Shown in pieces: positions 1 through 63,886 of a DNA stretch of 64,000 nucleotides (position 1 is its first letter; each line of letters opens with the position of its first letter). The position numbers were made by a program, and so were the translations under genes. Below the pieces are notes generated by a model. It searched no databases and was not told the DNA's origin. It worked only from the letters and a program-made list of their open reading frames with translations. This stretch comes from Mesostigma viride (Eukaryota > Streptophyta > Mesostigmatophyceae > Mesostigmatales > Mesostigmataceae), in contig RPFO01000485.1 in assembly GCA_009746045.1 (NCBI GenBank), positions 1 through 64,000 on the forward strand, read 5' to 3'.

Positions 1-2700
1 AACCCTAAACCCTAAACCCTAAACCCTAAACCCTAAACCCTAAACCCTAAACCCTAAACCCTAAACCCTAAACCCTAAACCCTAAACCCTAAACCCTAAA
101 CCCTAAACCCTAAACCCTAAACCCTAAACCCTAAACCCTAAACCCTAAACCCTAAACCCTAAACCCTAAACCCTAAACCCTAAACCCTAAACCCTAAACC
201 CTAAACCCTAAACCCTAAACCCTAAACCCTAAACCCTAAACCCTAAACCCTAAACCCTAAACCCTAAACCCTAAACCCTAAACCCTAAACCCTAAACCCT
301 AAACCCTAAACCCTAAACCCTAAACCCTAAACCCTAAACCCTAAACCCTAAACCCTAAACCCTAAACCCTAAACCCTAAACCCTAAACCCTAAACCCTAA
401 ACCCTAAACCCTAAACCCTAAACCCTAAACCCTAAACCCTAAACCCTAAACCCTAAACCCTAAACCCTAAACCCTAAACCCTAAACCCTAAACCCTAAAC
501 CCTAAACCCTAAACCCTAAACCCTAAACCCTAAACCCTAAACCCTAAACCCTAAACCCTAAACCCTAAACCCTAAACCCTAAACCCTAAACCCTAAACCC
601 TAAACCCTAAACCCTAAACCCTAAACCCTAAACCCTAAACCCTAAACCCTAAACCCTAAACCCTAAACCCTAAACCCTAAACCCTAAACCCTAAACCCTA
701 AACCCTAAACCCTAAACCCTAAACCCTAAACCCTAAACCCTAAACCCTAAACCCTAAACCCTAAACCCTAAACCCTAAACCCTAAACCCTAAACCCTAAA
801 CCCTAAACCCTAAACCCTAAACCCTAAACCCTAAACCCTAAACCCTAAACCCTAAACCCTAAACCCTAAACCCTAAACCCTAAACCCTAAACCCTAAACC
901 CTAAACCCTAAACCCTAAACCCTAAACCCTAAACCCTAAACCCTAAACCCTAAACCCTAAACCCTAAACCCTAAACCCTAAACCCTAAACCCTAAACCCT
1001 AAACCCTAAACCCTAAACCCTAAACCCTAAACCCTAAACCCTAAACCCTAAACCCTAAACCCTAAACCCTAAACCCTAAACCCTAAACCCTAAACCCTAA
1101 ACCCTAAACCCTAAACCCTAAACCCTAAACCCTAAACCCTAAACCCTAAACCCTAAACCCTAAACCCTAAACCCTAAACCCTAAACCCTAAACCCTAAAC
1201 CCTAAACCCTAAACCCTAAACCCTAAACCCTAAACCCTAAACCCTAAACCCTAAACCCTAAACCCTAAACCCTAAACCCTAAACCCTAAACCCTAAACCC
1301 TAAACCCTAAACCCTAAACCCTAAACCCTAAACCCTAAACCCTAAACCCTAAACCCTAAACCCTAAACCCTAAACCCTAAACCCTAAACCCTAAACCCTA
1401 AACCCTAAACCCTAAACCCTAAACCCTAAACCCTAAACCCTAAACCCTAAACCCTAAACCCTAAACCCTAAACCCTAAACCCTAAACCCTAAACCCTAAA
1501 CCCTAAACCCTAAACCCTAAACCCTAAACCCTAAACCCTAAACCCTAAACCCTAAACCCTAAACCCTAAACCCTAAACCCTAAACCCTAAACCCTAAACC
1601 CTAAACCCTAAACCCTAAACCCTAAACCCTAAACCCTAAACCCTAAACCCTAAACCCTAAACCCTAAACCCTAAACCCTAAACCCTAAACCCTAAACCCT
1701 AAACCCTAAACCCTAAACCCTAAACCCTAAACCCTAAACCCTAAACCCTAAACCCTAAACCCTAAACCCTAAACCCTAAACCCTAAACCCTAAACCCTAA
1801 ACCCTAAACCCTAAACCCTAAACCCTAAACCCTAAACCCTAAACCCTAAACCCTAAACCCTAAACCCTAAACCCTAAACCCTAAACCCTAAACCCTAAAC
1901 CCTAAACCCTAAACCCTAAACCCTAAACCCTAAACCCTAAACCCTAAACCCTAAACCCTAAACCCTAAACCCTAAACCCTAAACCCTAAACCCTAAACCC
2001 TAAACCCTAAACCCTAAACCCTAAACCCTAAACCCTAAACCCTAAACCCTAAACCCTAAACCCTAAACCCTAAACCCTAAACCCTAAACCCTAAACCCTA
2101 AACCCTAAACCCTAAACCCTAAACCCTAAACCCTAAACCCTAAACCCTAAACCCTAAACCCTAAACCCTAAACCCTAAACCCTAAACCCTAAACCCTAAA
2201 CCCTAAACCCTAAACCCTAAACCCTAAACCCTAAACCCTAAACCCTAAACCCTAAACCCTAAACCCTAAACCCTAAACCCTAAACCCTAAACCCTAAACC
2301 CTAAACCCTAAACCCTAAACCCTAAACCCTAAACCCTAAACCCTAAACCCTAAACCCTAAACCCTAAACCCTAAACCCTAAACCCTAAACCCTAAACCCT
2401 AAACCCTAAACCCTAAACCCTAAACCCTAAACCCTAAACCCTAAACCCTAAACCCTAAACCCTAAACCCTAAACCCTAAACCCTAAACCCTAAACCCTAA
2501 ACCCTAAACCCTAAACCCTAAACCCTAAACCCTAAACCCTAAACCCTAAACCCTAAACCCTAAACCCTAAACCCTAAACCCTAAACCCTAAACCCTAAAC
2601 CCTAAACCCTAAACCCTAAACCCTAAACCCTAAACCCTAAACCCTAAACCCTAAACCCTAAACCCTAAACCCTAAACCCTAAACCCTAAACCCTAAACCC
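1..2700. repeat. Telomere array, plant type (CCCTAAA)n
   Basis: A perfect 7-bp repeat, about 385 copies, with no variant unit that I could see. The C-rich strand reads 5' to 3' away from the window start, so the G-rich TTTAGGG strand runs outward. This is the orientation of a true left chromosome end rather than an interstitial array. The last unit passes into TTAAACAGCTTC at 2701. TTTAGGG is the usual land-plant and green-algal telomere, also known in some other protists. Confidence 0.98.
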
Positions 2701-4562
2701 TTAAACAGCTTCACTAAACATTCAGATTTCTACATTGTCGGCACTTGGGCGCAGCGGTTCACGCTTTATTTTATTACCCTGGGTGACTATCGGTTGCCAG
2801 CCGTGACCAGCCTTGCAAAGCCCAAGACCCCTTTGTTCTTCTGAGAATACAACGAGCTTGATGGCGCCTATATAAAGCGACCACAAATGTTTTAAACGGT
2901 GGGCCACCTTCCAGGCGACATGGGGTTTCTTTTTCCTAGTTCCAGCCAAGCATTATTCAGATTTTTTGCCAGTCGCCATGGTTTGGAAGCACCATCGTAC
3001 ATGAGCAGCTATGCACGGACCACTACAACGGCATCAACTACAATGCTCCATCCCACGTCGGTGCGGGGAAATCTTGCAGCATCCACCTGGTTCTCCTCTC
3101 GCACCCTTGGCTTTTCTTCAATGGGAAACAGCTCGTTTAAATGCCGCTCGCCAGCCGCAGCAGCCGTCATTAGTTAAGTGGCCAGTGACAGCCAACTGCC
3201 GCACGCAGCCGTAGTGCAGTACCCAGCACGCGCCATACAGCATGATAGGATATAGTAGCAGCAGTCAGCCACACACCACAGCCTGACTCGCTTGTGGTAG
3301 TTGTTGCAACCAGCTGCAGATACCTACCAGCACCCCATCAGCATGGCAGCACACAGTCGCAGCAGCCAGCAACACACAGCAGCCTGATCAGCTCTTAGTA
3401 GTAGTTGCAGCCAGCTGCACGTACCTGCCAGCCAAATCGCCACTTCAGACCAGCATCAATGCCACCAGCCAGCAGTACGCAGCCGTCTAGTCAGCGGTTA
3501 GTAGTCACTGCAGCTAGGTGCCTGTAGCTGCTCACACCCACTGCGGTCGTCGCTAGCTCCTGATAAATGATTCCAGAGCGACTCCTGCCATTACCAGCTT
3601 TTACGTCCACGATTTCTGCTGATTATTACTCCAAGGGGGGCACCCTTCCAGGGGCATCTACACACGGGGCCGAGCTGGATCCAGTCCTTGTTTTTTTTTT
3701 TTCCCAGTATTTCTACGTGACCTGGGGCACCCTGTTCTTCACCTGGCGCACTCCAAGGGCAACTTGGGGGCCATGTGACCCTTAGCTCCAACTGCTACTC
3801 TTGCCTATTTCTCCTTTCAGCATGACCGGGTTAGCCGTGTAAGGGGGGGAGAGCTTGGGTTTCTTTATACCCGACTACCCTCACTATCCATGTGTTACTT
3901 GCCAGGGGGGGTGAGCTTGTATACGGCATTTGGTGCAAGGGGCATGTCAGGAATATGCCCCAATATGCCTGACAAGTCTAGCACTTACTAATCTAGATAA
4001 AGTTCGGGTAGTCCGTAGTTAAGTCAGAACAACCTACAACGCCAGTATGACTGCGTAGAGCTCATGTTTGGCTACAACTTTGCCACTAGAATCACCTTGA
4101 TCTGAGCTCTAGGTAGAAAGTTATGAGTCTTTTCATATATATGTGCCTGGTCACTATACGGCACTGTAGTACAATCCATGTCGTGTCATGATGTGGCGCA
4201 TGGCCCATATAGGACAGGCGCCAATAATTCAATTCGTGGCACCTGGACCGTCAGCTAGGCGTACCTAATTCTGTCTGCCATGGTACAACCATGATTTGCC
4301 AGCAGGCAGCATCTAGCACGGGTTAAGTGTTGCCTAGCTGTCATGTTAAGTTAATTATGTTGTGGTCCTGCCGACCAGCCATATAGGTGGTGGCTGGGCT
4401 ACACGCCAGACATCTTTTCTGACCACCACTATTCTAGAAAATGGCACCTTTCAGCCATGGTGGTTGACAAAATATTTCCATCATGACAAAGTCGTAAATG
4501 AGGTCATCATTATTAATGTAATATCAACAACCTCCCATGGTCACAGCATGACATTTTTGACA
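2701..4562 (+). mobile_element. TRIM3, telomere-truncated 3' half (internal part plus 3' LTR)
   Basis: 2707-4147 is almost identical to 62445-63886, with about ten base differences and a poly-T length change. It therefore represents the internal region (2707-3944) and 3' LTR (3945-4562) of the short LTR element whose 5' part lies at 61578-63886. The left part has been replaced by telomere. No gag or pol motif is visible. The internal region is rich in CAGC-type imperfect repeats (about 3230-3540). The ORFs at 2899-3177 and 3567-3785 recur in both copies but match no family I know. A polypurine-like GTGCAAGGGGCA sits just before the LTR. Confidence 0.85.
3945..4562 (+). repeat. 3' LTR of TRIM3
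   Basis: Begins TGTCAGG and ends TTTGACA, so it has TG...CA ends with a 5-bp inverted TGTCA/TGACA. A second copy lies at 61578-62196, differing by a 3-bp and a 4-bp indel and few substitutions. A third, cut short, lies at 63684-63886. The LTR is followed directly by GTGTT (4563-4567), which matches the GTGTT just before the 5' LTR at 61573-61577. Confidence 0.9.
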
Positions 4563-5128
4563 GTGTTGCTTGTCCTGCAAGGAAACAACGGCCTTGCGCA
4601 CACTCCCATCCACGGACACTACCGTGGCTGGACCATTCCACTGTCCCCTCTTTCCAAAGGGGCCCTCTTTATGCACCCAAACCAGGTCTCCTACACTATA
4701 GGCGGTAACCGGCCTACGTGTATCCCTTCGTACCAGGTTGGCAAATCTACCCTGCAAATGGCGTGCCCACTCCTCTTCTATCTCTGGTGGGTAGTGGCCG
4801 TGCTGTGCACAATCCGGCCTCAGCTGTTATCACCACATTGCGAGAAGGAATGGACAACAACACACGCCGATTAAGGCATGCACAAATCCGCAGCGCCCAC
4901 ATGAGGCGGGCTGCATATGCTGAAAGGGATGCGTCACCTCAAGTGTCTCCGTGCAGCTTGCTTGAATTCTTGCACGGCACGCTCCACTATACCCTGACCA
5001 GTGTGGTCCTCACGCCCAACTGTCTTGAGGCATTCAAATCCAGGCTGGCCCTCTAGACACGCGAACTGCCTGTCCATCTGTATTGACTCCAGTGGTGAGA
5101 AAAAGGACGAAGAGACATCAATGGCTTC
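4563..5128 (-). pseudogene. Integrase C-terminal fragment of copia-2
   Basis: The minus strand encodes the end of an integrase. The last part of the catalytic core has a GQGIVERAVQEFKQ stretch, matching GQQGVVERAIQEIK in the copia-1 integrase. An SH3-like C-terminal segment follows, with VTAYSVGDLVWVHKEGP and WNGPATVVSVDG. The reading frame is broken between the two parts, so this is a relic. The downstream end (4563) is cut by the TRIM3 insertion, and the frame resumes at 61577 on the other side of that insertion. The upstream end (5128) runs straight into a partial LTR, so gag and the N-terminal integrase domain have been deleted. Confidence 0.8.
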
Positions 5129-5382
5129 TGCCGTATTCGTCTGCCCGCTGAAGGGGTGTTTTATCTCATCAATCCTTGGCACGACTTCAACAGCCTGACC
5201 GACAGTCAGTGCTCAACAGTCAGCGCGACCACTAGTTATAATGCATCAGCTTGGCTATACTGCCACCATGGTCATGTACACAAGCTGTGTGCAGCAATTG
5301 TGAGTATTGTTTCACAGATTTACATTCCATTATGCATGCACCAGTTTATACACGCATTTCGGTCAAGCAACAGATTGCAACT
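5129..5382 (-). repeat. Partial 5' LTR of copia-2 (outer 254 bp)
   Basis: Identical or nearly so to 55649-55902, the matching half of the full 501-bp LTR at 55402-55902. It ends ATTGCAACT on the plus strand, the terminal motif of this LTR. The next bases are TAGTG (5383-5387), which equal the TAGTG before the other LTR at 55397-55401, so this is the outer edge of the element. The inner half of the LTR and the start of the internal region are missing. Confidence 0.88.
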
Positions 5383-5695
5383 TAGTGGATGCATTCCAAG
5401 TAGTGGTAATGACCAGTCCAGGATGATATGGCACGCGAACGCGACAACAACAACAACAACAACATGCATGCATGCAACTCCCATGTGGCGAAGTCGGTGC
5501 TTTCATCAGGCGGAGCCAATTTCGGAAGAACCGTTAGGTTCGCCAGAATTGGCGAATCTTATAAAGCCGTACACGGCAGAAAAGACATAGGAACAAGCTT
5601 AAGGGGGGGGGATGCTTCGCATGCCCCCCCAAAAGAAGGCGCAAAGCCGACCGTAACTCTAGTAGTCGAGTCAGATGGCAACTCGATTTCCAGTC
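5383..5695. other. Right flank of copia-2; shared flank sequence and a G/C hairpin
   Basis: 5383-5446 matches 38561-38624, the copy of the target sequence that has no copia-2 insertion. A CAA microsatellite follows (about 5447-5463). At 5603-5630 a run of G, then GATGCTTCGCATG and a run of C, can form a strong hairpin. No supported gene. Confidence 0.7.
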
Positions 5696-6439
5696 TGTCA
5701 GAAACCGGGGCTCGGAGGAAAGATCTTTTGCCTGTTATGACCCAGATATTGCACAAGTGTATGGAAAAGACTTCTTGTATTAAAATACGTTTACTGAGAG
5801 TGGAAAACACGGTGCGGCCAACACTGGGCGCAGTCTACCATAGCCAACACTGGGCCAGGGCAAATGACAATGCCAACACTGGGCAGGGTCACACGACCAA
5901 CACTGGGTCGGGGCCACACACGGCTAGGCAAGCAAACAACTCTAGGCACACAAAGTAGTGGCGGCTAATGCATTATGCACCGTTGATTTACATCTGACGG
6001 CACTGCAGCTTAGCGTCTCTACAACCACGGAAAGAACACTAGATAATAACGACTTTGCAGCCTGTAATCTATTGTCCACATCATGGTACATTGTGTGTGT
6101 GGTCTGATAGGCTCAAAGTCCTATCGCCTCCAGGGCGGCACCACAAACTGCGGACCTGATCTGATCCGGAGAGAGCCGATGTAAATTACGGCACCTGTAA
6201 CGGTGCTGACAGGTAACGCTTGCTGTATTCCGAGCAACATCATTCGGATTTTAGTACACTCAAACATTGTATATGATATTAAACTAGTCAACGACCTGTG
6301 GGTGCAATTAATAGGGATGCAAACCCAACAACAAGTCGTGTAAATAAACACCTAGCTGACGGCGTCAATTTTCCCCGCATATAATGCGTGATAACATAAT
6401 GCGTGACAAAAGTAGAGAAACATCGCTAGATATTTGACA
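5696..6439 (-). repeat. 3' LTR of TRIM1
   Basis: 744 bp, TGTCA...TGACA. Contains a cluster of short CCAACACTGGG direct repeats (about 5817-5910), repeated in the partner LTR at 7718-8461. Confidence 0.93.
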
Positions 6440-6469
6440 CACCCCCATACTGCATGTCACGTATTCCGG

Positions 6470-7355
6470 CTACTCAATGAAAAAACCAGCAGGAACATCT
6501 GCCACGTCGTCAGCCAGTGGCTCGCCGTCCATGGTGAAGTGCGCCTCAGGTTTCTTGGACTTGTTCTCCGCCTTCTTGGACCAGCAGCGATCCTCAGTGT
6601 GACCGGTACGGTGGCAGTGCTTGCAGGTCAGCACTTTCCCACCCTTGGTGAGGAAGACTGATTCGTCGATAGTACCCGCACAGTGGGGGCAGGCAGCAGT
6701 ATGATACACTGGTGCACTGGAATCTGAGCTGCCAGCTTGGGCCGCGCGGTGCACACGCAGATGGTCGTCCACTTTCAGGACGGGCGGTCTTGTAGTCTTT
6801 CCACGTCAAGTCGGGGGGAAGGTTGTACGCCGCCAGGACGGGGCCATACTGGGCAGGAAGTCTGCGGCGGTGTGATGTCACCAGGATGGAATCATGGAGT
6901 TTATTGTTGCTTAATTTATTATATTGCAGGTACAATCGTTCGGTGAGATTGACATTTGCAGGAACAGAATCCATGGGAATCTGCTCAGCTGACAGCAGTT
7001 CCTCAAGTGTCGCGGCCTGATGGGTGGATGTCGTTTCGTCACGTCCATAGACGTCAACCAGGACGGTCCACGCCTCGTGCATATACTTGTTGGGGGCCGT
7101 AGCGGCATGCAGTAGCGCGTTGCCGTCGAGGCCAGCAATCAGGGCAGCGTAACCAATTTTTTGCTGCTTTACCACGATCGGATCCTTTCCAGCTAGTACA
7201 TCTGAATATCCGAGGGCGTCGAATTGCCCTTCCGCCTTGATTCGGAATCCGGTGAATTTCTTGGGGTCGCTCCCATCAAAGTTGAGATTCTTGAGAGCAC
7301 TAAGAACGCTGCTCTCCTTGACTTCTCGTGCCACAGCTGGCGCACCTCCCGACAT
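6470..7355 (-). pseudogene. TRIM1 gag, frameshifted, CCHC zinc knuckle
   Basis: The N-terminal part (minus strand from 7355, MSGGAPAVAREVKESSVLSA) resembles a copia-type capsid region: FDGSDPKKFTGFR, an EAWTVLVDVYGRDET segment and an NLTERLYLQYNKL helix. The frame shifts near 6770-6800. The C-terminal part then has the zinc knuckle CKHCHRTGHTEDRC (CX2CX4HX4C, RNA binding) and ends at 6470 with PAGFFIE. A second CPHC motif precedes it. Known copia gag proteins are about this size. No protease, integrase or reverse transcriptase follows before the LTR, so the element is non-autonomous. Expected role: capsid protein packaging the element RNA. Confidence 0.82.
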
Positions 7356-7705
7356 GTTCTTGATTGCGTTGGAGATTTGTAATGTGAAGTAAAGTGTGAT
7401 TTAATCTCTCCAGAGATACTGCGTTGTTGTCGAGCAGACCCTGTAGATTTCTGATTGAAAAGTCTGGAAGTTCGCTGAAACACACACAGTTGAAAAATTC
7501 TTGTCGAATGCCACGCAGGAGCCAGCGGCAGTAGGCAGATTCAGGAAACACGCCCGGGAAGATGTCTTCAACTTGGGCAAAAAGCAGATTTGCTCTTGCG
7601 AGGTAGTCTGGGCAAGATTCTTCGGGAAATTGAAAAAGCTCAATTCCAGATCTCAGGTTGCGGTCGTTGGGAATTGGAAAATATGGGTTCATAGGCATCA
7701 CTCGC

Positions 7706-7717
7706 TACTCGATACCA
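7706..7717 (-). other. Primer-binding site of TRIM1
   Basis: Minus strand TGGTATCGAGTA directly abuts the 5' LTR end. It begins with TGGTATC, as in plant copia primer sites paired to initiator tRNA-Met. Confidence 0.8.
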
Positions 7718-8461
7718 TGTCAGAAACCGGGGCTCGGAGGAAAGATCTTTTGCCTGTTATGACCCAGATATTGCACAAGTGTATGGAAAAGACTTCTTGT
7801 ATTAAAATACGTTTACTGAGAGTGGAAAACACGGTGCGGCCAACACTGGGCGCAGTCTACCATAGCCAACACTGGGCCAGGGCAAATGACAATGCCAACA
7901 CTGGGCAGGGTCACACGACCAACACTGGGTCGGGGCCACACACGGCTAGGCAAGCAAACAACTCTAGGCACACAAAGTAGTGGCGGCTAATGCATTATGC
8001 ACCGTTGATTTACATCTGACGGCACTGCAGCTTAGCGTCTCTACAACCACGGAAAGAACACTAGATAATAACGACTTTGCAGCCTGTAATCTATTGTCCA
8101 CATCATGGTACATTGTGTGTGTGGTCTGATAGGCTCAAAGTCCTATCGCCTCCAGGGCGGCACCACAAACTGCGGACCTGATCTGATCCGGAGAGAGCCG
8201 ATGTAAATTACGGCACCTGTAACGGTGCTGACAGGTAACGCTTGCTGTATTCCGAGCAACATCATTCGGATTTTAGTACACTCAAACATTGTATATGATA
8301 TTAAACTAGTCAACGACCTGTGGGTGCAATTAATAGGGATGCAAACCCAACAACAAGTCGTGTAAATAAACACCTAGCTGACGGCGTCAATTTTCCCCGC
8401 ATATAATGCGTGATAACATAATGCGTGACAAAAGTAGAGAAACATCGCTAGATATTTGACA
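7718..8461 (-). repeat. 5' LTR of TRIM1
   Basis: 744 bp, identical by eye to 5696-6439. It is followed by target duplication CAGTC at 8462-8466. Confidence 0.93.
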
Positions 8462-8643
8462 CAGTCAACTGAAGCTGGCAATCATTACCGGGTCAAGTTG
8501 CGACGCCGGTAAGTTGGGCGGCGTATACCACACGGCGCCCACCTTTCGGTAAATATCTGGCCGGAAAAATGGGCTTCGGGCGACTTGATGCTGCAGCTGC
8601 ATCGGGCTTGACGAGAGCTATCGATTGCCGTATAGAAGAGGAG

Positions 8644-8679
8644 GGGTGACATCCCCACTGTACAATGGGGATGTCACCC
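8644..8679. repeat. Perfect 14-bp inverted repeat (hairpin)
   Basis: GGGTGACATCCCCA and TGGGGATGTCACCC are separated by 8 bases. It lies at the inner terminal repeat of the DNA element above. Confidence 0.9.
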
Positions 8680-9232
8680 ATGTGGAATCTCTGGGTGCTC
8701 CCACACTCCCGGGTTGCCGCCGACGGAGGGCGGGGTGGGCACTCCACTAGCAAAACTGGGAACTCCTTCCGAGCATTGTGGATGATGACGACGGTAGCAA
8801 GGAGGAAAGAGCACCGTTGTACGCTCACTACAGGCAGCCGCACAACCTGGGAGCCAGGCGCGGCGCTAGTTCTAATGGTCATACGGGAGCTTAGGGGAGC
8901 TTGTAAGGGAGCTGCCCAGCCATGGCTCAGCAGCAAGAAGCACCTTGGCCAGCGGGAGAGCGGCGTTTCAAATGGATTATTGCTCGCTCGACCATGAGAA
9001 CTACCGGTGGCGTGGCGCCAGCCTGCACCGCCTGGGTCGGTCAGCCTAGTCTTGACGCTCCTGCAGGATCCGTAGTACGTATGTGCCAACCGACGACGGA
9101 CGATCTTCTAGGAATACCTTCCGGCCAAAAAGATAGACGACCGTGTCAAAAATGTCCCGGGAATGCCCAAACTGCTCCTTCCTTTTGCAAACTGGACGAC
9201 GGGCCTGCGACGGCCTCATTTTGGTAAGACCA

Positions 9233-9588
9233 AAAACCTCCTTCCCGTCCAAATTTTTGCCGACGACGGAGGGTTGGGTACGACCAAATTTGGCTTGATG
9301 TCACCCCTCCTTATAGACTAAGTTCGCCAAAGGAGGAGGGGCTGGGCTGCTAGCCTAATTCTATCGTTAAGGTTACGTTACCGCGTTAAATTGCGACAAA
9401 ACCTCCTTCCCGTCCAAATTTTTGCCGACGACGGAGGGTTGGGTACGACCAAATTTGGCTTGATGTCACCCCTCCTTATAGACAAAGTCCGCCAGAGGAG
9501 GAGGGGCTGGCCGGCTGGGCTGCTAGCCTAATTCTATCGTTAAGGTTACGTACCCGCGTTAAGTTGCGTTACCGCGTTAAATTGCGAC
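9233..9588. repeat. 165-bp tandem duplication
   Basis: Two head-to-tail copies (start 9233 and 9398), each beginning AAAACCTCCTTCCCGTCC and ending near TTAAATTGCGAC. The second copy carries small insertions. Confidence 0.88.
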
Positions 9589-9612
9589 GCCAGATTTTAG
9601 GCGCGGTAATGA

Positions 9613-10262
9613 CGGCCGGTAGTAGTACTCGGCCCGTCGGCCGATATATAATGGCCCAATCTCTGTCTGCCCGTCTGGCATGGGAATCTCTGTCTGCCTC
9701 TGGCAATGACCGGCGTGGGATCGAGGGGAAGGCCGGAGTCGCCAAAGAAATGGGTTCCCAGTCGCCAAAGGCGAATCCCTAGTCGCCAAAGGTGAAATCG
9801 GGCAGCATAAGCGGAATTTTTCACTGTTGTGTCAGCTAGAAGAATAAGCAAACCTGCTTGCAGACCGGCCAGCCTGCGTGACTGGCTTTGATCAATGATC
9901 AGTCAGGAACTCAGGATCCTTTACCTTACTGAAAGAAAAGAGAAAATAAGAGAATAAGCAATAAGCAGCTGGCGAGATGGCGGCCGGTACACTTGAGTAC
10001 CTCTGTATTATTTCATGAATTCATCGCGCACTCTTTAAGGCTTTTTGCCGCGTCGATGGCTGCTGTTGTGCGAGCCTTCCTGAATACTAAGAATAGCAGA
10101 TTGTGACGCCAGTGAACCGACGAAGCTCCGTAGCTTTGGCTTTTTAATGGCATTGCTGTCAGTCGGGACATTTGCGGGCTAGAATAGGAAAGCCTACAGT
10201 ACAAAATGCATCATTGATGTTATGAGTGGGACGAACATGAGCAATGGCAGCACGCAGAATTT
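9613..10262. other. Intergenic, nothing recognised
   Basis: Short repeats of AGTCGCCAAAGG (about 9735-9795) are the only pattern. No gene is supported. Confidence 0.5.
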
Positions 10263-11195: not shown

Positions 11196-11232
11196 TGATT
11201 CAGCTCTTCCTCAGTTTATCACCCACCTCCAC

Positions 11233-11300
11233 CTGCCCGCCCGCCCGCCCGCCCGCCCGCCCGCCACAAACCAACCAACCAACCACCTGCCCACCAAACA
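11233..11300. repeat. (GCCC)n and (CCAA)n low-complexity tract
   Basis: Tandem GCCC units followed by CCAACCAACCAA. No gene. Confidence 0.9.
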
Positions 11301-11332
11301 GCCAGTTAACCAGCCAATCTATCAGCCAATAA

Positions 11333-12238: not shown

Positions 12239-12248
12239 CAGCCAATAA

Positions 12249-13520: not shown

Positions 13521-13606
13521 TTAATTAATTAATTAATTAATTAATTAGACTCGTGCTCCCGTTGGGGAGTCACGGAGCATTAACCCCGATAGATGGATGG
13601 AACCTT
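13521..13606 (-). mobile_element. LINE 3' end, hairpin type GTGCTCC/GGAGCAC
   Basis: On the minus strand it reads ...GACTCCCCAACGGGAGCAC followed by a TTAA tail (13521-13546). The same terminal sequence occurs at 37983-38030, 46513-46545 and 50175-50220. It joins head-on to the plus-strand ORF1 below, a layout that could come from twin-primed (5'-inverted) insertion. Confidence 0.75.
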
Positions 13607-46612: not shown

Positions 46613-46635
46613 TCAACCATGCAGCACCGACATGT

Positions 46636-53361: not shown

Positions 53362-53463
53362 GATGGCCTCTGTTCAGATCTGCTACAGCCAGCCAAGTGG
53401 CCAAGCAGCAATTAAAGCAATATAAGCTACTGAACAAGAAAGGAAAATGCCAAGTGTTACCAC

Positions 53464-53510
53464 TCAGGCAAGACCACCACGGTCACCCGCAGGCGCGTCC
53501 TGGTTCTCCT

Positions 53511-53541
<31 letters not shown>

Positions 53542-54390
53542 CACCACAATCAGCTCTGGCACCCTGCTACCCGCTGCGCCGTCGTCGACCCGCTGTCGGC
53601 CCGCGATGACAGAATCGTCACCGTTAGTATAGTAGACAGGTGACAACCCGTCGTTGGCACCCCGCGGATTGTATCTTGGCACCTCGTGGTCACCAAGCGC
53701 CTCGTCGCCTAGCCCAGCGACGCCCACTGCTCCCACCTCAAGGTCACTATCGTAACCAAGAGGGGCAAACTCTTCCCAACGCGTCACACGAACGCGAAGG
53801 GGTTGGGGCAGTTCCTGAAAAGGAACCCTTGCTCGCTCCGGAAACCTGCCGACTCGTGCCGCACGCTGTCCTCCGGTGATGGCTTCCGCTGTCGCCCCGA
53901 CCTCTGCAGGCCGCCTGTAGTGCTCCGCTCCGCGTCGTTCACGTCGAACTGGCCCCGCTGCAACACCCTCGTCGCCGATTACGCCTGCGAAAGTACGTGG
54001 TACACCCGCACCCGTTGCTGCCGGCACGAACTCGTGTCGCACTGCACCAGCCGCCTCCGCAGCCTCTCCTCGCCTAACCGCCAACTCCGCACGCACCCGC
54101 TCAGCTACTGCTGCAATCACCGTCTGGATGCCGACCAAACCGTGAAGCTCTTGCTCGAGGTCGTCGATGCTCCGGTGCTCCGGAATGACGATGGTTTGGA
54201 CGTGTCGCAGAATTCGCTCCCAATCTTCGACCTGGTCGTCGACGAATTGCACGAAGCTGCGATTAACAGGCGGACGATCTGCAAGCAATAAAGATAAATC
54301 TCGAACGACACGACGCAATTCAGGCGAAATTGAACCCCCAGCAGACTGCCGAAACCGGAAATTCTGCTGCCGTTGTTCTTCCTGCACCAT
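53464..54390 (-). CDS. Extra ORF upstream of copia-1 gag, 308 residues
   Basis: An open frame between the 5' LTR and gag. Helical, Arg/Glu-rich N-terminal half (LRRVVRDLSLLLADRPPVNR, VEDWERILRHVQTIVIPEHR), an alanine/glycine-rich middle, and an acidic end with an SDSDSDSDSDKENQ run. No match to gag, protease or env families that I recognise. Its position directly after the LTR leader suggests it is part of the element, perhaps an N-terminal gag-like or accessory protein. A stop and about 100 bp separate it from gag. No counterpart was found in copia-2, where this region is deleted. Confidence 0.6.
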
Positions 54391-54483
54391 TCACCACCGG
54401 ACGAGCTCCTCGCGTCGTCAACGCTGCACACCGCAACCAGCAACGACCCTCCTGGCCGTTCCGCTGAGACTGTTTGTAATTTG

Positions 54484-55182
54484 AGTTAACGTTCTTAGCA
54501 AACGCAATGTAAAGGATATGGTTGCAATGCAGCAATATGTGAATATGGTTGGAAACGGAGCTTTGTTAAAATTGGATAATGTTACAACGCTCACACACTT
54601 GAGGCTTGTACACGAGTTTGCCAAGTCAAGGCAACACACGTGAGGCGGGCTCGCAAGAGATGCCCAATTGGCACTGGCCTATTCTTTATATACTTGTGCA
54701 CTGTGCTTTGCTAGCCCTGAGCAGCCTAGGAGGCCTGCTCAGTAATAACACTCCCAGTACAGTATTCACAACCTGTACAGCGCCCAGATCCTATACAGTA
54801 GGTCTGCCATACAGGCACAGTGACCACAGAGTACAGTCACCACAGTGATTATTGCATCTGCACCTAGAAGTCCAGGACTAGGCCTGCGGTACCAACAGAC
54901 CACAGGTTAAGGTTCCTATTTCCTGCGTACGACGTATTAATCCAATACCGTCGTAGGTTCAGCACCTAATTCCTGTCAGCCCAGGAATTACTGTCGACCC
55001 CATATGTCGTCGGCAAATATTCACGTCCGACTTAGAAGAACAGCCGGCTCGCGCTCGCGCGCGACCGGGAAGTCGGAACGCCATAACTTTCTTGATACTT
55101 GTCGGAATGAACTCGTTCCGGTGCCGCTGGAATCGCAGAGAAATGCCGAATCAGGATCACGCCAATGCGCTTGGCGTTAACT
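54484..55182 (-). repeat. 5' LTR of copia-1
   Basis: 699 bp, same ends as 39481-40179. Followed by CTTAT (55183-55187). Confidence 0.94.
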
Positions 55183-55401
55183 CTTATAACTACAACATTA
55201 CAACTCGACAGTCTTTGTAATTCGTCATGTATCTCATTGGAATTGAAAGGTCTTTTGGTTGCTTTGATGATAAAGCATTGTCTCAAGAATCGGCTGATTG
55301 GGCCGGATTGCCTGTCGTGAAGGTGGCGGTGCCGTAAAGGACCGCACCTTTCATTCACATTTTAAGGTGGCATATCACACACATGATTACTGCTGATAGT
55401 G
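55183..55401. repeat. Repeat S, copy 2, right part (target of copia-2)
   Basis: Continues 39157-39480 and matches 37827-37866, 38031-38182 and 38530-38565. It ends in TAGTG (55397-55401), the copia-2 target duplication. Confidence 0.9.
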
Positions 55402-55902
55402 AGTTGAGATTGAGAATGATGCTTGCAAGAATGCGGCACTAGGTGCCTGGGTTTATTATCAATTTATATGGTTACAAGTCATGTGTGCAACCCCAAGATT
55501 GCGATAGGCCTTATCGTCATTGCACCAATCACATTTCATGTGCATTAGCGATTTCCAAGAGGCACACTGAACTAGCGTTACGCCAGCGTTGCACAATGCT
55601 TCTAGACGCTTCTAGAACCATTTACAAATATCCATTAGCTGGGAATATTGCCGTATTCGTCTGCCCGCTGAAGGGGTGTTTTATCTCATCAATCCTTGGC
55701 ACGACTTCAACAGCCTGACCGACAGTCAGTGCTCAACAGTCAGCGCGACCACTAGTTATAATGCATCAGCTTGGCTATACTGCCACCATGGTCATGTACA
55801 CAAGCTGTGTGCAGCAATTGTGAGTATTGTTTCACAGATTTACATTCCATTATGCATGCACCAGTTTATACACGCATTTCGGTCAAGCAACAGATTGCAA
55901 CT
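55402..55902 (-). repeat. 3' LTR of copia-2
   Basis: 501 bp, AGTTGAGATTG...GATTGCAACT on the plus strand, inverted ends AGTTG/CAACT. The next bases on the plus strand are CCAGCCCTTTCTTTTTTC, a polypurine tract when read on the minus strand. The outer half recurs at 5129-5382. Confidence 0.86.
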
Positions 55903-56119
55903 CCAGCCCTTTCTTTTTTCATGTGGCAATAGGACTGCGTACTCAAATCTGTAAGAACTACGGCCGCGCAGGCCTTGCCATCATGAACGCACCTTAGGCC
56001 CCACATGGTTTTGGAGGGTAATCCCCAGCCAAACAAATTACACCAGAGCATCGCTACCGGGAAAACCTACCAAGGTAAAACCCGAGTCAAGGGGCCATTC
56101 ACACTCCACGACATCTCAA

Positions 56120-58006
56120 CTAGTGCCGTGGCTGACCCAGCGACATATTGTTCATTTGGTGCCTAAGAAGAGTATACTGTGCCTTGGCGGAGCTATAGAG
56201 CTTGGTAAGAGCATCCGAGCAACTCTGGTCGCCTGCCACGTGCTCGGTATGGAGCGCATCAGAAAATTCCTTCACCCGGAGGAAGTCAAGGTCTCTCGTG
56301 CGAGCGTAGGGGTTCTCAATGAAGTCCACCAGCGCTTGGCTGTCGGTGCGCATGACGCGATCGATGCGTGTGGTGAGACCGCCCAGCTTGAGGATCCAGC
56401 AGAGTAGCGCGTGGAAATACGCGAGCTCACTTGCAGCCTCGCAATACGCACGCGCCTCGGCGGTGTCCGACCCCACATACACACGGCGGTGTAGACGTGA
56501 GAACCACGCAAAGATGGAGGATGGCGCAGATTGGTCAGCGTTTGAGATATAGCTAACAGCCGCACACCTACCACGCATCTTGGTGAGCACCCGCGCATCC
56601 AAAGAACTGTCACAATAAGCCCCTAGCTCGATGGGCTTGTCCCAGTCAACACCCTGCAGGACCAACCCCGGTGAGGCCTGCACATACTCAGCTACAACCG
56701 GGCGGGCCAACAAGCAGAGAACATCGTCTGTCAACCGACTAAGGACAGCCAAGTCAGGGCTCGTGGTACACGCAAGCCAATTGAGTTTGCCACGCAGTGC
56801 ACCACACTCAGAGGGAAGGATAGGCCCAGTGCGAGCCATGACCTCCTTGACCAGGTCGGGGACATAGCTACCCTTAGGATGCAACAACATGACCCACTGC
56901 CCTTGCTCATCGTGATCGAGAATAGTGTCCATGCCCATGAAGGGCACGATCTTGCCCGGCTCCCTAAAGACGAGCATGCCCACAGGGTACACTGAGTGCA
57001 CGAGCGAATGGAACCACACAATCCACTCCCGTGGCCCCAGGCAGTCACAGTCATCGGCATGCACGAAAACAAACACGAGCTCCCCCTTCCAGACACCAAC
57101 AAACAAGGAGGGGTCCAGGTCGCTGTACATCATGCGTGCGCGGTTAAGTAGAAGGTGCTCTAAACTCTTGCGCCACGCCCGCGGCCCGGCCACGGTCCCA
57201 TCCACAGCCTTCACCAACCTCATGAACTTCTTGCCCACAATAGGTTCCCACATCTTGGGTGTCCTAACATACAGCGGTGTGGTGCCCTCCCACAATTTAG
57301 CCGTCTCATCTGAATCCCCGTTAAGGAAGGCCTTAGAAAAATCCAGCACCGCGGAGCCATGCGGCAAACCTTTGTTGAGGCGCCCGAGATGAAAGCACAC
57401 TAACAATCGCCAAGTGTCTTTATTTAAGCCCGGGGCAGTCAGGGCTGAGGAGGGCAGGTCAGAAGATCCAGAAAATTCTAGCACCACAGGTCTAGCAAAC
57501 TCTACTTTCCTGTCAGTGCCGGGAACCGGCTTCATCTGGAAGGTCCATTTGAAACGAAGCAACCGGCCATCCCTTGGGACTAGGTCCACTGGCTCCACAC
57601 AACCCAGTCCTAACCATCGTTCCCCTGCAGCCAGCATAGCCCCTTGGGTATTGTCTAGCCCTTCCTCGGTTGAGACGTGCCTAGCAACATCATGGAAGGA
57701 CATGGGGCTTTCAGTGGCAACATCGTGGAAGCTAATTATCCCCAAACTGTCAGGGGTGAGGGCTTTAGGGGTGAGAAGATCGCGGGCAGGAGGCAATTCA
57801 GAATCCTTGTACTCTACCCCTTTCATGGCAGCCACCATAGGCAATGAGAGACCCCGAGCAGCGACATCGAGGGAAAAATTATTCAATCGCATGCAGCCAA
57901 ACCCCGCTCGGGACAGCTGTGTGCTGCTCACTGTAACCCCGGGTAGCGTCAAGAACGGCTGTCCTAATAAGTTATAAGGCGGGCCCATCTTCCCCCTCAC
58001 AGGCAT
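56120..58006 (-). CDS. Copia-2 reverse transcriptase and RNase H, 628 residues
   Basis: An uninterrupted frame. N-terminal residues 1-25 are the end of the protease-like domain (PYNLLGQPFL). Copia-type RT covers about residues 130-400: LLRFKWTFQMKP, FARPVVLEFSG, DTWRLLVCFHLGRLNKG, SAVLDFSKAFLNGD and the catalytic VFVHADDCDCLGP. The connection has VPFMGMDTILD. RNase H covers about 460-610 with AYCDSSLDARV, GSDTAEARAYCEA, RTDSQALVDF and AGDQSCSDALTK. The start codon is only the first ATG after the LINE insertion at 58014-58196; the natural frame came from upstream. RT copies the element RNA and RNase H removes it. The open frame suggests a young or selected copy, yet the element as a whole is broken. 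Confidence 0.9.
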   Translation of the reverse strand: MPVRGKMGPPYNLLGQPFLTLPGVTVSSTQLSRAGFGCMRLNNFSLDVAARGLSLPMVAAMKGVEYKDSELPPARDLLTPKALTPDSLGIISFHDVATESPMSFHDVARHVSTEEGLDNTQGAMLAAGERWLGLGCVEPVDLVPRDGRLLRFKWTFQMKPVPGTDRKVEFARPVVLEFSGSSDLPSSALTAPGLNKDTWRLLVCFHLGRLNKGLPHGSAVLDFSKAFLNGDSDETAKLWEGTTPLYVRTPKMWEPIVGKKFMRLVKAVDGTVAGPRAWRKSLEHLLLNRARMMYSDLDPSLFVGVWKGELVFVFVHADDCDCLGPREWIVWFHSLVHSVYPVGMLVFREPGKIVPFMGMDTILDHDEQGQWVMLLHPKGSYVPDLVKEVMARTGPILPSECGALRGKLNWLACTTSPDLAVLSRLTDDVLCLLARPVVAEYVQASPGLVLQGVDWDKPIELGAYCDSSLDARVLTKMRGRCAAVSYISNADQSAPSSIFAWFSRLHRRVYVGSDTAEARAYCEAASELAYFHALLCWILKLGGLTTRIDRVMRTDSQALVDFIENPYARTRDLDFLRVKEFSDALHTEHVAGDQSCSDALTKLYSSAKAQYTLLRHQMNNMSLGQPRH

Positions 58007-58013
58007 GCTCCCC

Positions 58014-58196
58014 CCTTACCCGGGCATAGCGTGATAGACCATGAGGGTGCGGGTGCCCTGGTGCACCTAGAGCAAGTGTTGTTTACATTCCCACCCTTGC
58101 AGGAAGTAGCTTAGAATGTATTATAGGCTCATATGCCCCTTCTCAGGGCTATGTGCTACATATACTCCCAACGGAGTTATGTTCCTAATTAATTAA
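58014..58196 (+). mobile_element. LINE 3' end inserted in the copia-2 protease
   Basis: GGTGCACCTAGAGCAAG, CCCACCCTTGCAGGAAGTAG, TGTGCTACATATACTCCC, AACGGAGTTATG and a short TTAATTAA tail match 17180-17372 and 34371-34560. The target duplication is not clear. Confidence 0.82.
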
Positions 58197-58797
58197 TCAT
58201 ACCCCTCTACCACACACATGGGCGTGTCTGCGCCAAGTATGGTTAAGGGGAAATTCCCCCAGGACCTTGTAGGACCCTGACCTAGCAAAATCAGTGACCT
58301 GAGTCCAATGAGAGGGCAGCAAAGGAAAGTCTACACAATTGGCCCCGATAATAGAGACCTGGGCCTGGGTATCAATGAGGAGCCCACAATTCAGCGCCCT
58401 AGTGGTCAACAAGGAAGAGATGACTGCAATGCTCGGGCCCAGCTGAGGGGGGGCGCCTGCAGTCTGTGGTGGGCGGCGAAGGGAGCCTAACCCCTAGTTA
58501 TTGTCCCGGCGCAGCCCTAGAACAATCTTGCTGAGCAACCCACCACCCCGGCGAGGCTGACTAACGGCAGCCGGACCCTGGCTAACGGCAGGGGTAATGC
58601 CCTCCCTACTACCCTCGCGCAGGTCAGCAGGGGGCTCGCGAGCTAAGGTCTGCACATCTGCAGCAAGTGCCACCAGATCACCGTCCTCCTCAACATCAAA
58701 GAGACAACCAGCGCAGGCCAGAAATCGGGAGAATCCGGACCATGGTATCCTCAACATGCTCATCGTCCTCTACCTCCCGAGCTTCGGCAGACATTTG
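58197..58797 (-). pseudogene. Copia-2 protease-like domain and upstream linker
   Basis: The minus strand reads ALNCGLLIDTQAQVSIIGAN, with DTQA where retropepsins have DTGA or DSGA. A WTQVTDFARSGSYKVLGEF segment then leads to the site of the LINE insertion. The other half of the domain is at the start of the 56120-58006 frame. Before it lies an acidic and proline-rich linker (EDGDLVALAADVQTLAREPP), which is interrupted by the 51-bp retroposon and continues past TRIM2 at 61420-61577. A frame change is needed at the LINE edge. The order integrase, protease, RT is the same as in copia-1. Confidence 0.72.
58697..58747 (-). mobile_element. 51-bp CTCCTTG-family retroposon in copia-2
   Basis: A 10-bp duplication TCCTCAACAT (58687-58696 and 58748-58757) bounds it. 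On the minus strand it ends CTGGTTGTCTCTTTG, and the duplicated target starts with AT. Confidence 0.9.
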
Positions 58798-59399
58798 TGT
58801 CAAAAATCCTAATAATAATGCGTCAACGAATGAGCTCAAATGTTGCGGCACAACTCATTTCATTAATACAATAAAAGACGCATATATAGAATTTAAGGAC
58901 CGTGACCGGTGTCCATTGCCAAGCCACAAGGCAACTGGCCCACCATCAGGTAACGTGAAAAGGTGCACGCCGACCTCTTAAACAATGTCCAATGTCGGCT
59001 GCACACATTATCCCTACGTTAACTTAACACATAAAGTGTCTCGACTTGAACAACTGGCACACAAAATCCACTAGGCAATGATGCGAATATTCGGCACCAA
59101 TATTTGACCCCACTATTGCGCGGCGCTAGGAGTTAGCCACCGCCAAATGGCACGAGATACTCACGCCCTACAAGTCGTACCATGCAACCACAAGGTAGAG
59201 CCGAATTAATCCTAACTTCGGCACCTAATATATTTGTGCATACTCAACTGTCCGTCATAAGAAAAGTACCGCCGGAAAGAACACGGCAAGCCCTACTCAG
59301 CCCTAATAATATCCTTGGCCAGAAAATACAGAAGATTGGCCACAACATAACATAGGCTGGCAAACGGGCACATGCAGGGTTTATATTAAAACCCTGACA
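58798..59399 (-). repeat. 3' LTR of TRIM2
   Basis: 602 bp, TGTCAAAAATCC...AAACCCTGACA on the plus strand. Confidence 0.93.
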
Positions 59400-60800
59400 C
59401 CCCCCTTGCACGTTGCCAGTGCAGGGTCCAATGAACGTCAAGTCCCCCCTCAACTAGGGTAGGGCTTGCCGGGTACAACATACCCCAGCAACCCCCCTTA
59501 CCCGGGAAGCCCCTCCCAAGGAACCATCCAGCAACAAATTCACTGGAAAAAATGCCATCCTGGTCAGAACAACAAAGGTGCTACATGCCTGTGTCTCTTC
59601 CAAAATACATCCAGGCGTCCCTAGAGGTATAAACTGACAGCCCCAGCGTCCCAGGTCTGATGCAGAAACACAGCAATAAGTCACAACAACTACACTTGCC
59701 AGGAATAGCACACATGGGCAAACACTGCCCCATCAGGCTACCAATAGCCCTAAAATGGACCACCACTGTCCCAAGGCCTCCACGGCCCCACGCTGGCACG
59801 CCGTCGTGCCAACAAACTCCCGGGAATGATCAGGTCCCGAGCATGGAAAGTCAACCAAGAACTTCCCCCAGAGCGCTCCCATAACAGGTTGGACTGATCC
59901 CAACCTCCAGACTGGCCAAAACACTAGGCTGCACATGCTAGTTTGCCTCGTCCATTCAAAAACACAGCTGACCACCAAGTTTGCATGCAAAGCAGGCGCG
60001 TATACATCCCAAAGTAGGTCAATACAGACCACAGGCCACGTTAGGCCCCACAAATGTCGTCGCGAGACAGTCTCATGCCACACACCCCCCCTCAAGAAAT
60101 AAGTGGGGGCAAATATTTTTGTCAGCTTTAAAATGTCAGAAGCTCCCTTGGCTTAGAGCTTCTAAAATAACATGCAGCTCACTGGTACTTCTGACCAGCT
60201 TCAAAATCAAAAACCCACTGGCATAGCCAGCTTCAAAAGAGAGGCCATGCTGGCACTCCTGGCCAACATCTTCATCGCCAACAAAAAGCCGGCAGGCAGG
60301 CAGTCCTCGTCGACAAAAAATGCAGGAAATTCCGCAGGCTGCGCCACCAAAAATGGCGATAATCCGTTGCGCAGGTCGCTCGCAAAATTCCAGCCGACGT
60401 CCGCTCCGAGCCACATGTTGATGCGCAGGTCACTGGTACAGAAAAAGAGAAAAAAGTCTGCACCCAGCTGGAACCAGAGCCTTGACCTCGCCATGTGGGG
60501 CTCAACGCCAGGCGGCGCCAGCCCACAGCAAACCCGAAACATGAAAGTTCCGCTGGCTTTGACACATATAACAACTCGCCTGCGTGGCTGCGCTGGCCCA
60601 GGCCTGTCGACCCATGAAATTTCTGCCCGTTCCGCCGAACTTCAAATTCAAAATGCTGCGACGTATGAATCCTCACGACATTGCTCACGAAATTACGTAA
60701 CAACGCTGCCGCCATCAATTATATGCGCCGGCAGGGTAAAATGGCTTCATCATGGTCACAAGAATGTCGTTCAAAGTCGTCTCAAAGGTGTGGAACTTTC

Positions 60801-60812
60801 CCTCCGATACCA
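60801..60812 (-). other. Primer-binding site of TRIM2
   Basis: Minus strand TGGTATCGGAGG, directly inside the 5' LTR. It shares TGGTATCG with TRIM1. Confidence 0.82.
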
Positions 60813-61414
60813 TGTCAAAAATCCTAATAATAATGCGTCAACGAATGAGCTCAAATGTTGCGGCACAACTCATTTCATTAATACAATAAAAGACGCATAT
60901 ATAGAATTTAAGGACCGTGACCGGTGTCCATTGCCAAGCCACAAGGCAACTGGCCCACCATCAGGTAACGTGAAAAGGTGCACGCCGACCTCTTAAACAA
61001 TGTCCAATGTCGGCTGCACACATTATCCCTACGTTAACTTAACACATAAAGTGTCTCGACTTGAACAACTGGCACACAAAATCCACTAGGCAATGATGCG
61101 AATATTCGGCACCAATATTTGACCCCACTATTGCGCGGCGCTAGGAGTTAGCCACCGCCAAATGGCACGAGATACTCACGCCCTACAAGTCGTACCATGC
61201 AACCACAAGGTAGAGCCGAATTAATCCTAACTTCGGCACCTAATATATTTGTGCATACTCAACTGTCCGTCATAAGAAAAGTACCGCCGGAAAGAACACG
61301 GCAAGCCCTACTCAGCCCTAATAATATCCTTGGCCAGAAAATACAGAAGATTGGCCACAACATAACATAGGCTGGCAAACGGGCACATGCAGGGTTTATA
61401 TTAAAACCCTGACA
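60813..61414 (-). repeat. 5' LTR of TRIM2
   Basis: 602 bp, same as 58798-59399, followed by ATTTG (61415-61419). Confidence 0.93.
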
Positions 61415-61419
61415 ATTTG

Positions 61420-61577
61420 CATAGGGTCAGAGGCAGGCATGGGTAAAAGAGGGGCAATCACGTCACCTGGTGGAGGCCGCAAGAAGTTGTCCGCGTCCTC
61501 GTAGTAGTGCAGAAGGCGCTCCCACGCACTTGTGTTCGGTTGATAGTGCTTGAGCTTGCTCCACGGGATGTGGTGTT
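61420..61577 (-). pseudogene. Copia-2 pol linker after integrase
   Basis: The minus strand reads HIPWSKLKHYQPNTSAWERL and a proline-rich PPPGDVIAPLLPMPASDPM. The frame is continuous on one side with the coding at 58797 (once TRIM2 and one ATTTG are set aside) and on the other with the integrase end at 4563 (once TRIM3 and one GTGTT are set aside). It is therefore the piece between integrase and protease. Confidence 0.75.
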
Positions 61578-63886
61578 TGTCAGGAATATGCCCCAATATG
61601 CCTGACAAGTCTAGCACTTACTAATCTAGATAAAGTTCGGGTAGTCCGTAGTTAAGTCAGAACAACCTACAACGCCAGTATGACTGCGTAGAGCTCATGT
61701 TTGGCTACAACTTTGCCACTAGAATCACCTTGATCTGAGCTCTAGGTAGAAAGTTATGAGTCTTTTCATATATATGTGCCTGGTCACTATACGGCACTGT
61801 AGTACAATCCATGTCGTGTCATGTGGCGCATGGCCCATATAGGACAGGCGCCAATAATTCAATTCGTGGCACCTGGACCGTCAGCTAGGCGTACCTAATT
61901 CTGTCTGCCATGGTACAACCATGATTTGCCAGCAGGCAGCATCTAGCACTGGTTAAGTGTTGCCTAGCTGTCATGTTAAGTTAATTATGTTGTGGTCCTG
62001 CCGACCAGCCATATAGGTGGTGGCTGGGCTAGGTACACGCCAGACATCTTTTCTGACCACCACTATTCTAGAAAATGGCACCTTTCAGCCATGGTGGTTG
62101 ACAAAATATTTCCATCATGACAAAGTCGTAAATGAGGTCATCATTATTAATGTAATATCAACAACCTCCCATGGTCACAGCATGACATTTTTGACATGGC
62201 ATCGGAATGAGGGGGGTTGTGATCTTTCCAAATCGGGCAAATTTTTGCCTGGGCAGCATTTCGGCAAGAACTTTCGGAATTCTAATCCGTTGGTGCCACT
62301 CAACATGTCCACGGAATCAGCATCAAATTGCGCATCTATTGAACCAAGTCCGGCGTCATTCCGTGGAGTATTGCGTCGGCTACGAATTTTCTTGCGGCAG
62401 GCCCTGTTTGCTCCGAATTTCGACCTTAAACGACCTCTTGCATGAGCTTCACTAAACATTCAGATTTCTACATTGTCGGCACTTGGGCGCAGCGGTTCAC
62501 GCTTTATTTTATTACCCTGGGTGACTACCGGTTGCCAGCCGTGACCAGCCTTGCAAAGCCCAAGACCCCTTTGTTCTTCTGAGAATACAACGAGCTTGAT
62601 GGCGCCTATATAAAGCGACCACAAATGTTGTAAACGGTGGGCCACCTTCCAGGCGACATGGGGTTTCTTTTTCCTAGTTCCAGCCAAGCATTATTCAGAT
62701 TTTTTGCCAGTCGCCATGGTTTGGAAGCACCATCGTACATGAGCAGCTATGCACGGACCACTACAACGGCATCAACTACAATGCTCCATCCCACGTCGGT
62801 GCGGGGAAATCTTGCAGCATCCACCTGGTTCTCCTCTCGCACCCTTGGCTTTTCTTCAATGGGAAACAGCCCGTTTAAATGCCGCTCGCCAGCCGCAGCA
62901 GCCGTCATTAGTTAAGTGGCCAGTGACAGCCAACTGCCGCACGCAGCCGTAGTGCAGTACCCAGCACGCGCCATACAGCATGATAGGATATAGTAGCAGC
63001 AGTCAGCCACACACCACAGCCTGACTCGCTTGTGGTAGTTGTTGCAACCAGCTGCAGATACCTACCAGCACCCCATCAGCATGGCAGCACACAGTCGCAG
63101 CAGCCAGCAACACACAGCAGCCTGATCAGCTCTTAGTAGTAGTTGCAGCCAGCTGCACGTACCTGCCAGCCAAATCGCCACTTCAGACCAGCATCAATGC
63201 CACCAGCCAGCAGTATGCAGCCGCCTAGTCAGCGGTTAGTAGTCACTGCAGCTAGGTGCCTGTAGCTGCTCACACCCACTGCGGTCGTCGCCAGCTCCTG
63301 ATAAATGATTCCAGAGCGACTCCTGCCATTACCAGCTTTTACGTCCACGATTTCTGCTGATTATTACTCCAAGGGGGGCACCCTTCCAGGGGCATCTACA
63401 CACGGGGCCGAGCTGGATCCAGTCCTTGTTTTTTTTTTTTTTCCAGTATTTCTACGTGACCTGGGGCACCCTGTTCTTCACCTGGCGCACTCCAAGGGCC
63501 ACTTGGGGGCCATGTGACCCTTAGCTCCAACTGCTACTCTTGCCTATTTCTCCTTTCAGCATGACCGGGTTAGCCGTGTAAGGGGGGGAGAGCTTGGGTT
63601 TCTTTATACCCGACTACCCTCACTATCCATGTGTTACTTGCCAGGGGGGGTGAGCTTGTATACGGCATTTGGTGCAAGGGGCATGTCAGGAATATGCCCC
63701 AATATGCCTGACAAGTCTAGCACTTACTAATCTAGATAAAGTTCGGGTAGTCCGTAGTTAAGTCAGAACAACCTACATCGCCAGTATGACTGCGTAGAGC
63801 TCATGTTTGGCTACAACTTTGCCACTAGAATCACCTTGATCTGAGCTCTAGGTAGAAAGTTATGAGTCTTTTCATATATATGTGCC
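61578..63886 (+). mobile_element. TRIM3, 5' part: LTR, internal region and cut-off 3' LTR
   Basis: 5' LTR 61578-62196 (TGTCAGG...TTTGACA) is preceded by target duplication GTGTT (61573-61577). The next bases, TGGCATCGGAATGA, resemble the primer sites of TRIM1 and TRIM2. The internal region 62197-63683 carries no gag or pol motif. The 3' LTR begins at 63684 and stops at 63886, where the sequence departs from the full LTR at 3945-4562. 62424-63886 matches 2699-4147 except for a 13-bp gap at 62432-62444. Confidence 0.88.

Follow-up and report, generated by a model that had tools for sequence, protein, structure and literature searches.

The first 64,000 bases of scaffold C2100 (1,064,062 bp) in the 439.9-Mb assembly of Mesostigma viride, here called the window (bases 1-64000), start with telomere repeats and carry, near both ends, parts of a copia-type long terminal repeat (LTR) retrotransposon, copia-2, in which a second LTR element, TRIM3, is nested. 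The scaffold was examined up to base 153000 and in five later samples; 1-112779 is free of N, and N is read at 112780-153000 and 163001-168882. The assembly was searched with 4568-5693 for copia-2 (41 matches listed; 40 of 1,375 candidates scored), for TRIM3 (40 of 235 candidates scored; the 38 other copies mentioned below are the listed matches minus the two in C2100), and with 107001-112779 (40 of 1,917 candidates scored). Ten proteins were run against Pfam, two of which received a family at an E-value of 0.01. A protein search in which 7,996 candidates were scored gave one hit, a Mesostigma viride protein at 54%; like the CCCTAAA telomere, it suggests a green alga close to Mesostigma.

Two copies of the copia-2/TRIM3 locus

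A sequence-only reading of the window had taken the two parts for one locus split between the window ends. The target duplications that it named were confirmed on the plus strand, TAGTG at 55397-55401 and 5383-5387 for copia-2 and GTGTT at 61573-61577 and 4563-4567 for TRIM3. Each makes up about 0.06% of the 61,290 five-mers of the non-telomeric plus strand (GTGTT 40, TAGTG 36), so two chance matches are unlikely. The copia-2 pol frame, its pieces being read apart, joins in phase across the GTGTT site, as had been claimed. The right piece (4563-4820, minus strand) ends ..AVVSLQDKQ at this site and the left piece resumes HIPWSKLKHY..; copia-1, another element of the window, is continuous through the corresponding place of pol (..WVAIDGSQAVHRLSWSKIRPRG). 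BLASTP against copia-1 gave a significant match for the right piece only, and the left piece was compared by eye. An unoccupied homologue of the copia-2 target (38530-38624, plus strand) equals 55366-55401 (36/36) plus 5383-5446 (63/64; here 38561-38624), without copia-2. Since it reads through both flanks, left flank, copia-2 and right flank are one locus. At this place, at least 1.1 kb of sequence is present as a tandem repeat (37509-38624 and 39157-39480). Its second copy received both copia insertions, and the segment from 37509 also holds the empty site of copia-1, near 37825.

The locus is not split between the window ends but present twice: a complete copy with later insertions extends over 55397-67791, past the window edge, the left part being a duplicate that was truncated. 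In the complete, proximal copy, copia-2 (minus strand) occupies 55402-61577 up to TRIM3, with its 3' LTR at 55402-55902 and a reverse transcriptase frame at 56120-58015. Nested in it is a second non-autonomous LTR element (58798-61414, minus strand) with identical 602-bp LTRs and the target duplication ATTTG (58793-58797, 61415-61419). TRIM3 (plus strand) follows at 61578-63886. Position 63886, earlier regarded as the end of the locus, is the edge of a 918-bp insertion in the second LTR of TRIM3 (63887-64804, plus strand), of which the first 114 bases (63887-64000) lie in the window. After its 13-bp target duplication, ATATATATGTGCC, the LTR resumes (64818-65229) and is followed by GTGTT (65230-65234), more copia-2 and, outside the window, the right TAGTG (67787-67791). 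A direct junction of 63886 to 4148, named in the sequence-only reading as a possible sign of duplication, is absent; the equivalent of 4148 is 64818, after the insertion and its target duplication. Within the proximal copia-2 a further insertion of 1.7 kb (65539-67274) is flanked by TTAA and has the ends CCCGTG..CACGGG.

The truncated, distal copy consists of a TRIM3 remnant (2707-4562, plus strand; internal part 2707-3944, complete LTR 3945-4562), GTGTT (4563-4567, the counterpart of 65230-65234), and a copia-2 remnant (4568-5382, minus strand). Here copia-2 is internally deleted, and its integrase part directly abuts a partial LTR of 254 bp at 5128/5129. Positions 61577 and 4563, described as former neighbours, are both edges of the TRIM3 site but sit in different copies of the locus. 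The reported overlap of about 1.45 kb is real for 2707-4147 against 62445-63886 (1,441 columns, nine of them with a substitution, and a single 1-base gap); the extra left bases counted with it are CCTTAAAC, which in the right copy stand 13 nt ahead of AGCTTC. At the nine substitution sites, three changes are private to the left copy and six to the right one when compared with the 38 other copies. The idea that the overlap represents a different TRIM copy is unsupported by these private changes; among the 38 copies, one has the left base at 2790 and two have the gap at 3703.

The deletion junction of copia-2 was found in two of the 41 matches listed, both in C2100 (4568-5693 and 67262-68097). 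The remaining matches hold the integrase part alone (38) or, in C1690, the LTR part alone (one), the latter 0.77 kb from one integrase-only match and on the same strand. Both C2100 copies evidently derive from one copia-2. Copia-2 flanks were seen at none of the 38 other TRIM3-family copies listed, in 13 of which a flank may not be reached. As a control, target duplications were compared in the same 38 copies: identical 5-bp duplications are present in 25 and absent in 13, and in nine of these 13 the bases taken as left precede the second LTR, the first LTR not being reached.

Comparison of the two units

A truncated distal unit of about 21 kb (2699-23797, plus strand) is collinear with scaffold positions 62425-105700. 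The proximal unit begins in the window (23798-63886, plus strand) and runs on outside it to 105700; with later insertions it measures 82 kb. Past the right TAGTG, 67792-105700 repeats 5388-23797 in order. Three LTR-element insertions of the proximal unit, each bounded by a 5-bp duplication, are absent from the distal one (71363-83383, ACCAT; 85397-88090, ACATG; 88707-99497, GTTGT). Conversely, the sites of two distal insertions are empty in the proximal unit, namely those of the LTR element at 5696-8461 (empty site 68095-68099) and of a 906-bp insertion at 11333-12238 with the target duplication CAGCCAATAA. About 2.3 kb at 14679-17034 is also present in the distal and not in the proximal unit, and no target duplication was recognised there.

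Ten collinear blocks in direct orientation show 29 differences in 15,015 columns; three of these (4875-4878) are an artefact of the block edge at the TTAA insertion, so 26 remain. In TRIM3, differences between the units are about five times as frequent as in the other blocks. The palindrome at 5446/38625 was weighed as a possible junction and rejected, since the proximal unit reads identically past it.

The MITE at the unit junction

Homology between the units stops at the end of a 768-bp hAT-like miniature inverted-repeat transposable element (MITE) with the inverted ends AGGAGGGGTGACAT (23030-23797, plus strand; 23022-23805 with its 8-bp flanks). The 8-bp duplications are mismatched, with GTTGTCAC on the left and GCTAGCAG on the right. 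The copy at the far end of the proximal unit, R2a (104933-105700), has GTTGTCAC on both sides, and the copy R2b (106204-106954) has GTTAGTGG on both sides. The right flank of R2a itself is GTTGTCACTTGTCAG; the assembled sequence past the junction MITE at 23797 is GCTAGCAGCTCACC. The junction MITE is identical to R2a as far as 23353 and carries variants at 23354, 23357, 23358 and 23769. It is interpreted as a hybrid in which R2a is combined with a third copy, R2c, and the mismatched flanks at the junction, together with the matched GTTGTCAC at the parent R2a, are taken as a sign of ectopic recombination.

The sequence GCTAGCAG plus the MITE start has one exact match in the assembly (C2100:365986-366011, minus strand). 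The MITE found there has the 23354, 23357 and 23358 variants in common with the junction copy, lacks that at 23769, and shows 11 listed differences in all; with R2b it has in common a 17-base gap, the base at 23697 and the right flank (93/93 bases). If R2c resembled this 366-kb copy, the switch point in the junction MITE would lie between 23123 and 23354. This place (C2100:365150-366050) carries a second chimeric junction-type MITE, with the left flank GCTAGCAG and the R2b right flank, a deletion-type product in opposite orientation; how it is oriented to the window depends on the scaffolding across the intervening N. R2c seems to have joined two exchanges. In the tandem junction, R2a would have supplied the left side and R2c the right side; the other exchange, of deletion type, would have put the left side of R2c next to the right side of R2b. 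The two are not exact reciprocals. The expected place of R2c lies beyond the telomere truncation.

The telomere on the distal unit

The chromosome end is formed by 385 uninterrupted CCCTAAA units (3-2697), which stand directly on TRIM3; no further subtelomeric repeat separates the two. The distal unit stops within TRIM3, where the telomere base reads CCCTTAAAC-AGCTTC; the boundary CCCTTAAAC (2698-2706) may contain a telomere-like seed. In the right TRIM3 copy, CCTTAAAC is located at 62425-62432. A CCTTAAAC-like stretch is separated from the homologous AGCTTC by 13 nt in the right unit, as it is in 37 of the 38 other family copies; in one copy the search word was not found. Of these 37, 33 match the right unit exactly at this place, two have changes inside the 13 nt, one has CCCTAAAC, and one has CCTTCAAC. 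A start of the telomere on the telomere-like CCTTAAAC in TRIM3 is plausible.

The repeats stand directly on non-telomeric sequence, here a transposon, as in chromosome healing by de novo telomere addition, and the telomere-like CCTTAAAC at the boundary adds to the likeness. The end differs from such cases in that it lacks 13 nt next to the putative seed, and the role of telomerase is putative.

Origin of the scaffold end

The scaffold end most probably consists of a unit of about 54 kb that was duplicated in tandem, head to tail, by ectopic recombination between MITEs and then, or at the same time, capped by a telomere. The assembly contains two collinear copies separated by a hybrid MITE; the parental MITE at the far end is intact, and insertions confined to one copy have empty sites in the other. 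The order expected past the window, the hybrid MITE, and the deletion junction common to both C2100 units are found together, and therefore tandem duplication, one of the options offered in the sequence-only reading, is regarded as the right one. Recombination of the distal R2c (flank GCTAGCAG) with the proximal direct copy R2a (flank GTTGTCAC) would have created the second unit. Later, or in the same event, all sequence beyond TRIM3 of the outer unit would have been lost from the chromosome, and the broken end would have been capped by telomere repeats, possibly seeded on CCTTAAAC.

Tandem duplications by non-allelic homologous recombination between dispersed transposons leave similar products. 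Here, too, two adjacent direct copies are seen, with a hybrid transposon whose mismatched target duplications appear to be the flanks of two parents, and with the intact parental copy R2a at the other boundary. The case differs in that the distal parental copy was not found and the chromosome ends inside the outer unit. The mechanism is ordinary, and the locus shows a rearrangement of a known kind at good resolution. Its steps can largely be read from target duplications, which tell which MITEs recombined and which insertions came later. It also calls for caution, since two partial elements at opposite ends of a window may be separate copies, one of which looks partial only because the window stops there.

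Several points weigh against this reconstruction. The 768-bp MITE junction is read from assembly sequence alone. An intact R2c locus had no exact match in the assembly, where the left flank was found once, in another chimera; the 23769 variant of the junction MITE occurs in none of the other three copies. Because this variant is private and the 366-kb copy differs at 11 listed places, the sequence of R2c itself is a guess. Further points of this kind are the difference of about 2.3 kb between the units at 14679-17034 and the excess of unit-to-unit differences in TRIM3 (9/1,441 versus 17/13,571 elsewhere; Fisher P 0.0005).

The same product could have arisen in one step, by a break at R2c, invasion of R2a on the sister or homologue, break-induced replication over about 17-21 kb outward to TRIM3, and addition of a new telomere. 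A single event would then account for hybrid MITE, duplication and truncation alike, and the terminal, partial second unit resembles the outcome of break-induced replication with telomere addition. Intermediates of homologous recombination have reportedly been linked to telomere addition at breaks in fission yeast. The two steps, however, are not tied to one event here, as no sequence feature connects the time of capping with that of duplication. In one assay described in PMC10123110, break-induced replication was moreover a very minor contributor. Capping in the same step is a tentative variant of the tandem duplication, compatible with it; if true, it tells how telomere-proximal sequence is rebuilt in a probably early-branching green alga. 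A misjoin in the assembly, by which two homologous copies (haplotypes or separate loci) were connected inside the 768-bp MITE, would yield the same hybrid with mismatched flanks. The neighbouring sequence has further copies in C1504, C394 and C2100:360-365 kb, and the runs of N in C2100 were likewise counted for a misjoin. It is nevertheless unlikely, as the gap-free 1-112779 includes 2.7 kb of perfect telomere and an LTR element of 12 kb whose LTRs are identical, which suggests assembly reads much longer than 768 bp. Against joined haplotypes stands a published k-mer analysis that indicated homozygosity for M. viride (PMC7027972).

A unit circle, excised and reintegrated by homologous recombination or copied in the rolling-circle mode, would presumably give the same junction if closed at the MITE. 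It needs an extra intermediate and is very improbable. The circle named among the earlier options, and copying over more than one lap, are not required, because the insertion at 63887 and the telomere truncation explain the overlap; the tandem duplication matches the contig. Unless the contig is misassembled, independent insertion of two unrelated copia-2/TRIM3 copies can practically be dismissed, in agreement with the sequence-only reading. Both families are numerous, but the target duplications, the TRIM3 site and the internal deletion are the same in the two units, and the flanks are collinear over 21 kb.

Further copies of the neighbouring sequence

Among the matches listed, 107001-112779 recurs twice in C1504, about 57 kb apart, and in C394 and C2100:359914-365196 (97-99%), and in diverged pieces in C1391. 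In C1504, the sequence adjoining the proximal unit is present in direct orientation at 2-4396 and 55629-61392; C1504 also carries the sequence as far as the R2a end, together with a copy of R2b, arranged in the same order. The segment of copia-2 and its right flank was not found in C1504 or C394 among the matches listed. It is conceivable, if doubtful, that chromosome ends are rebuilt by break-induced copying of transposon-rich units of 50-60 kb, with MITEs as landing sites and telomeres where copying stops; the 366-kb chimera and the C1504 repeats would then be further products.

Classification of the elements

The nested elements resemble Ty1/copia-type and non-autonomous LTR retrotransposons in their target duplications, LTRs and nesting. 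They differ from the Ty1/copia type in their LTR ends, which in copia-1 and copia-2 begin AGTT and end AACT in place of TG..CA (copia-2: AGTTG..CAACT). The RVT_2 score of copia-2 was 22.2 bits, under the Pfam cut-off of 31.6. Its putative integrase had no Pfam match among the ten proteins run; it was recognised by eye and by likeness to copia-1, and would lie upstream of the reverse transcriptase, the order of the Ty1/copia type. Copia-1 itself (39481-55182, minus strand) has 699-bp LTRs with three differences and the target duplication CTTAT.

Terminal-repeat retrotransposons in miniature (TRIM) have very short LTRs and no coding capacity. The internal part of TRIM3 has no open reading frame of at least 180 aa, but its LTR of 619 bp is long for this group, so TRIM3 would be better called a non-autonomous LTR element. 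The MITE R2 would be classified as hAT-like: elements of this kind have terminal inverted repeats and an 8-bp target duplication, and R2 ends in AGGAGGGGTGACAT, with 8-bp target duplications at R2a and R2b.

The element at 5696-8461 (minus strand) has a gag-like frame only, recognised by eye and without a Pfam match. It probably moved recently, although no pol frame was seen, as its LTRs are identical and the target duplication CAGTC (5691-5695, 8462-8466) is present. The insertions at 63887 (918 bp) and 11333-12238 (906 bp) both appear to be non-LTR-like, judged by their A+T-rich ends.

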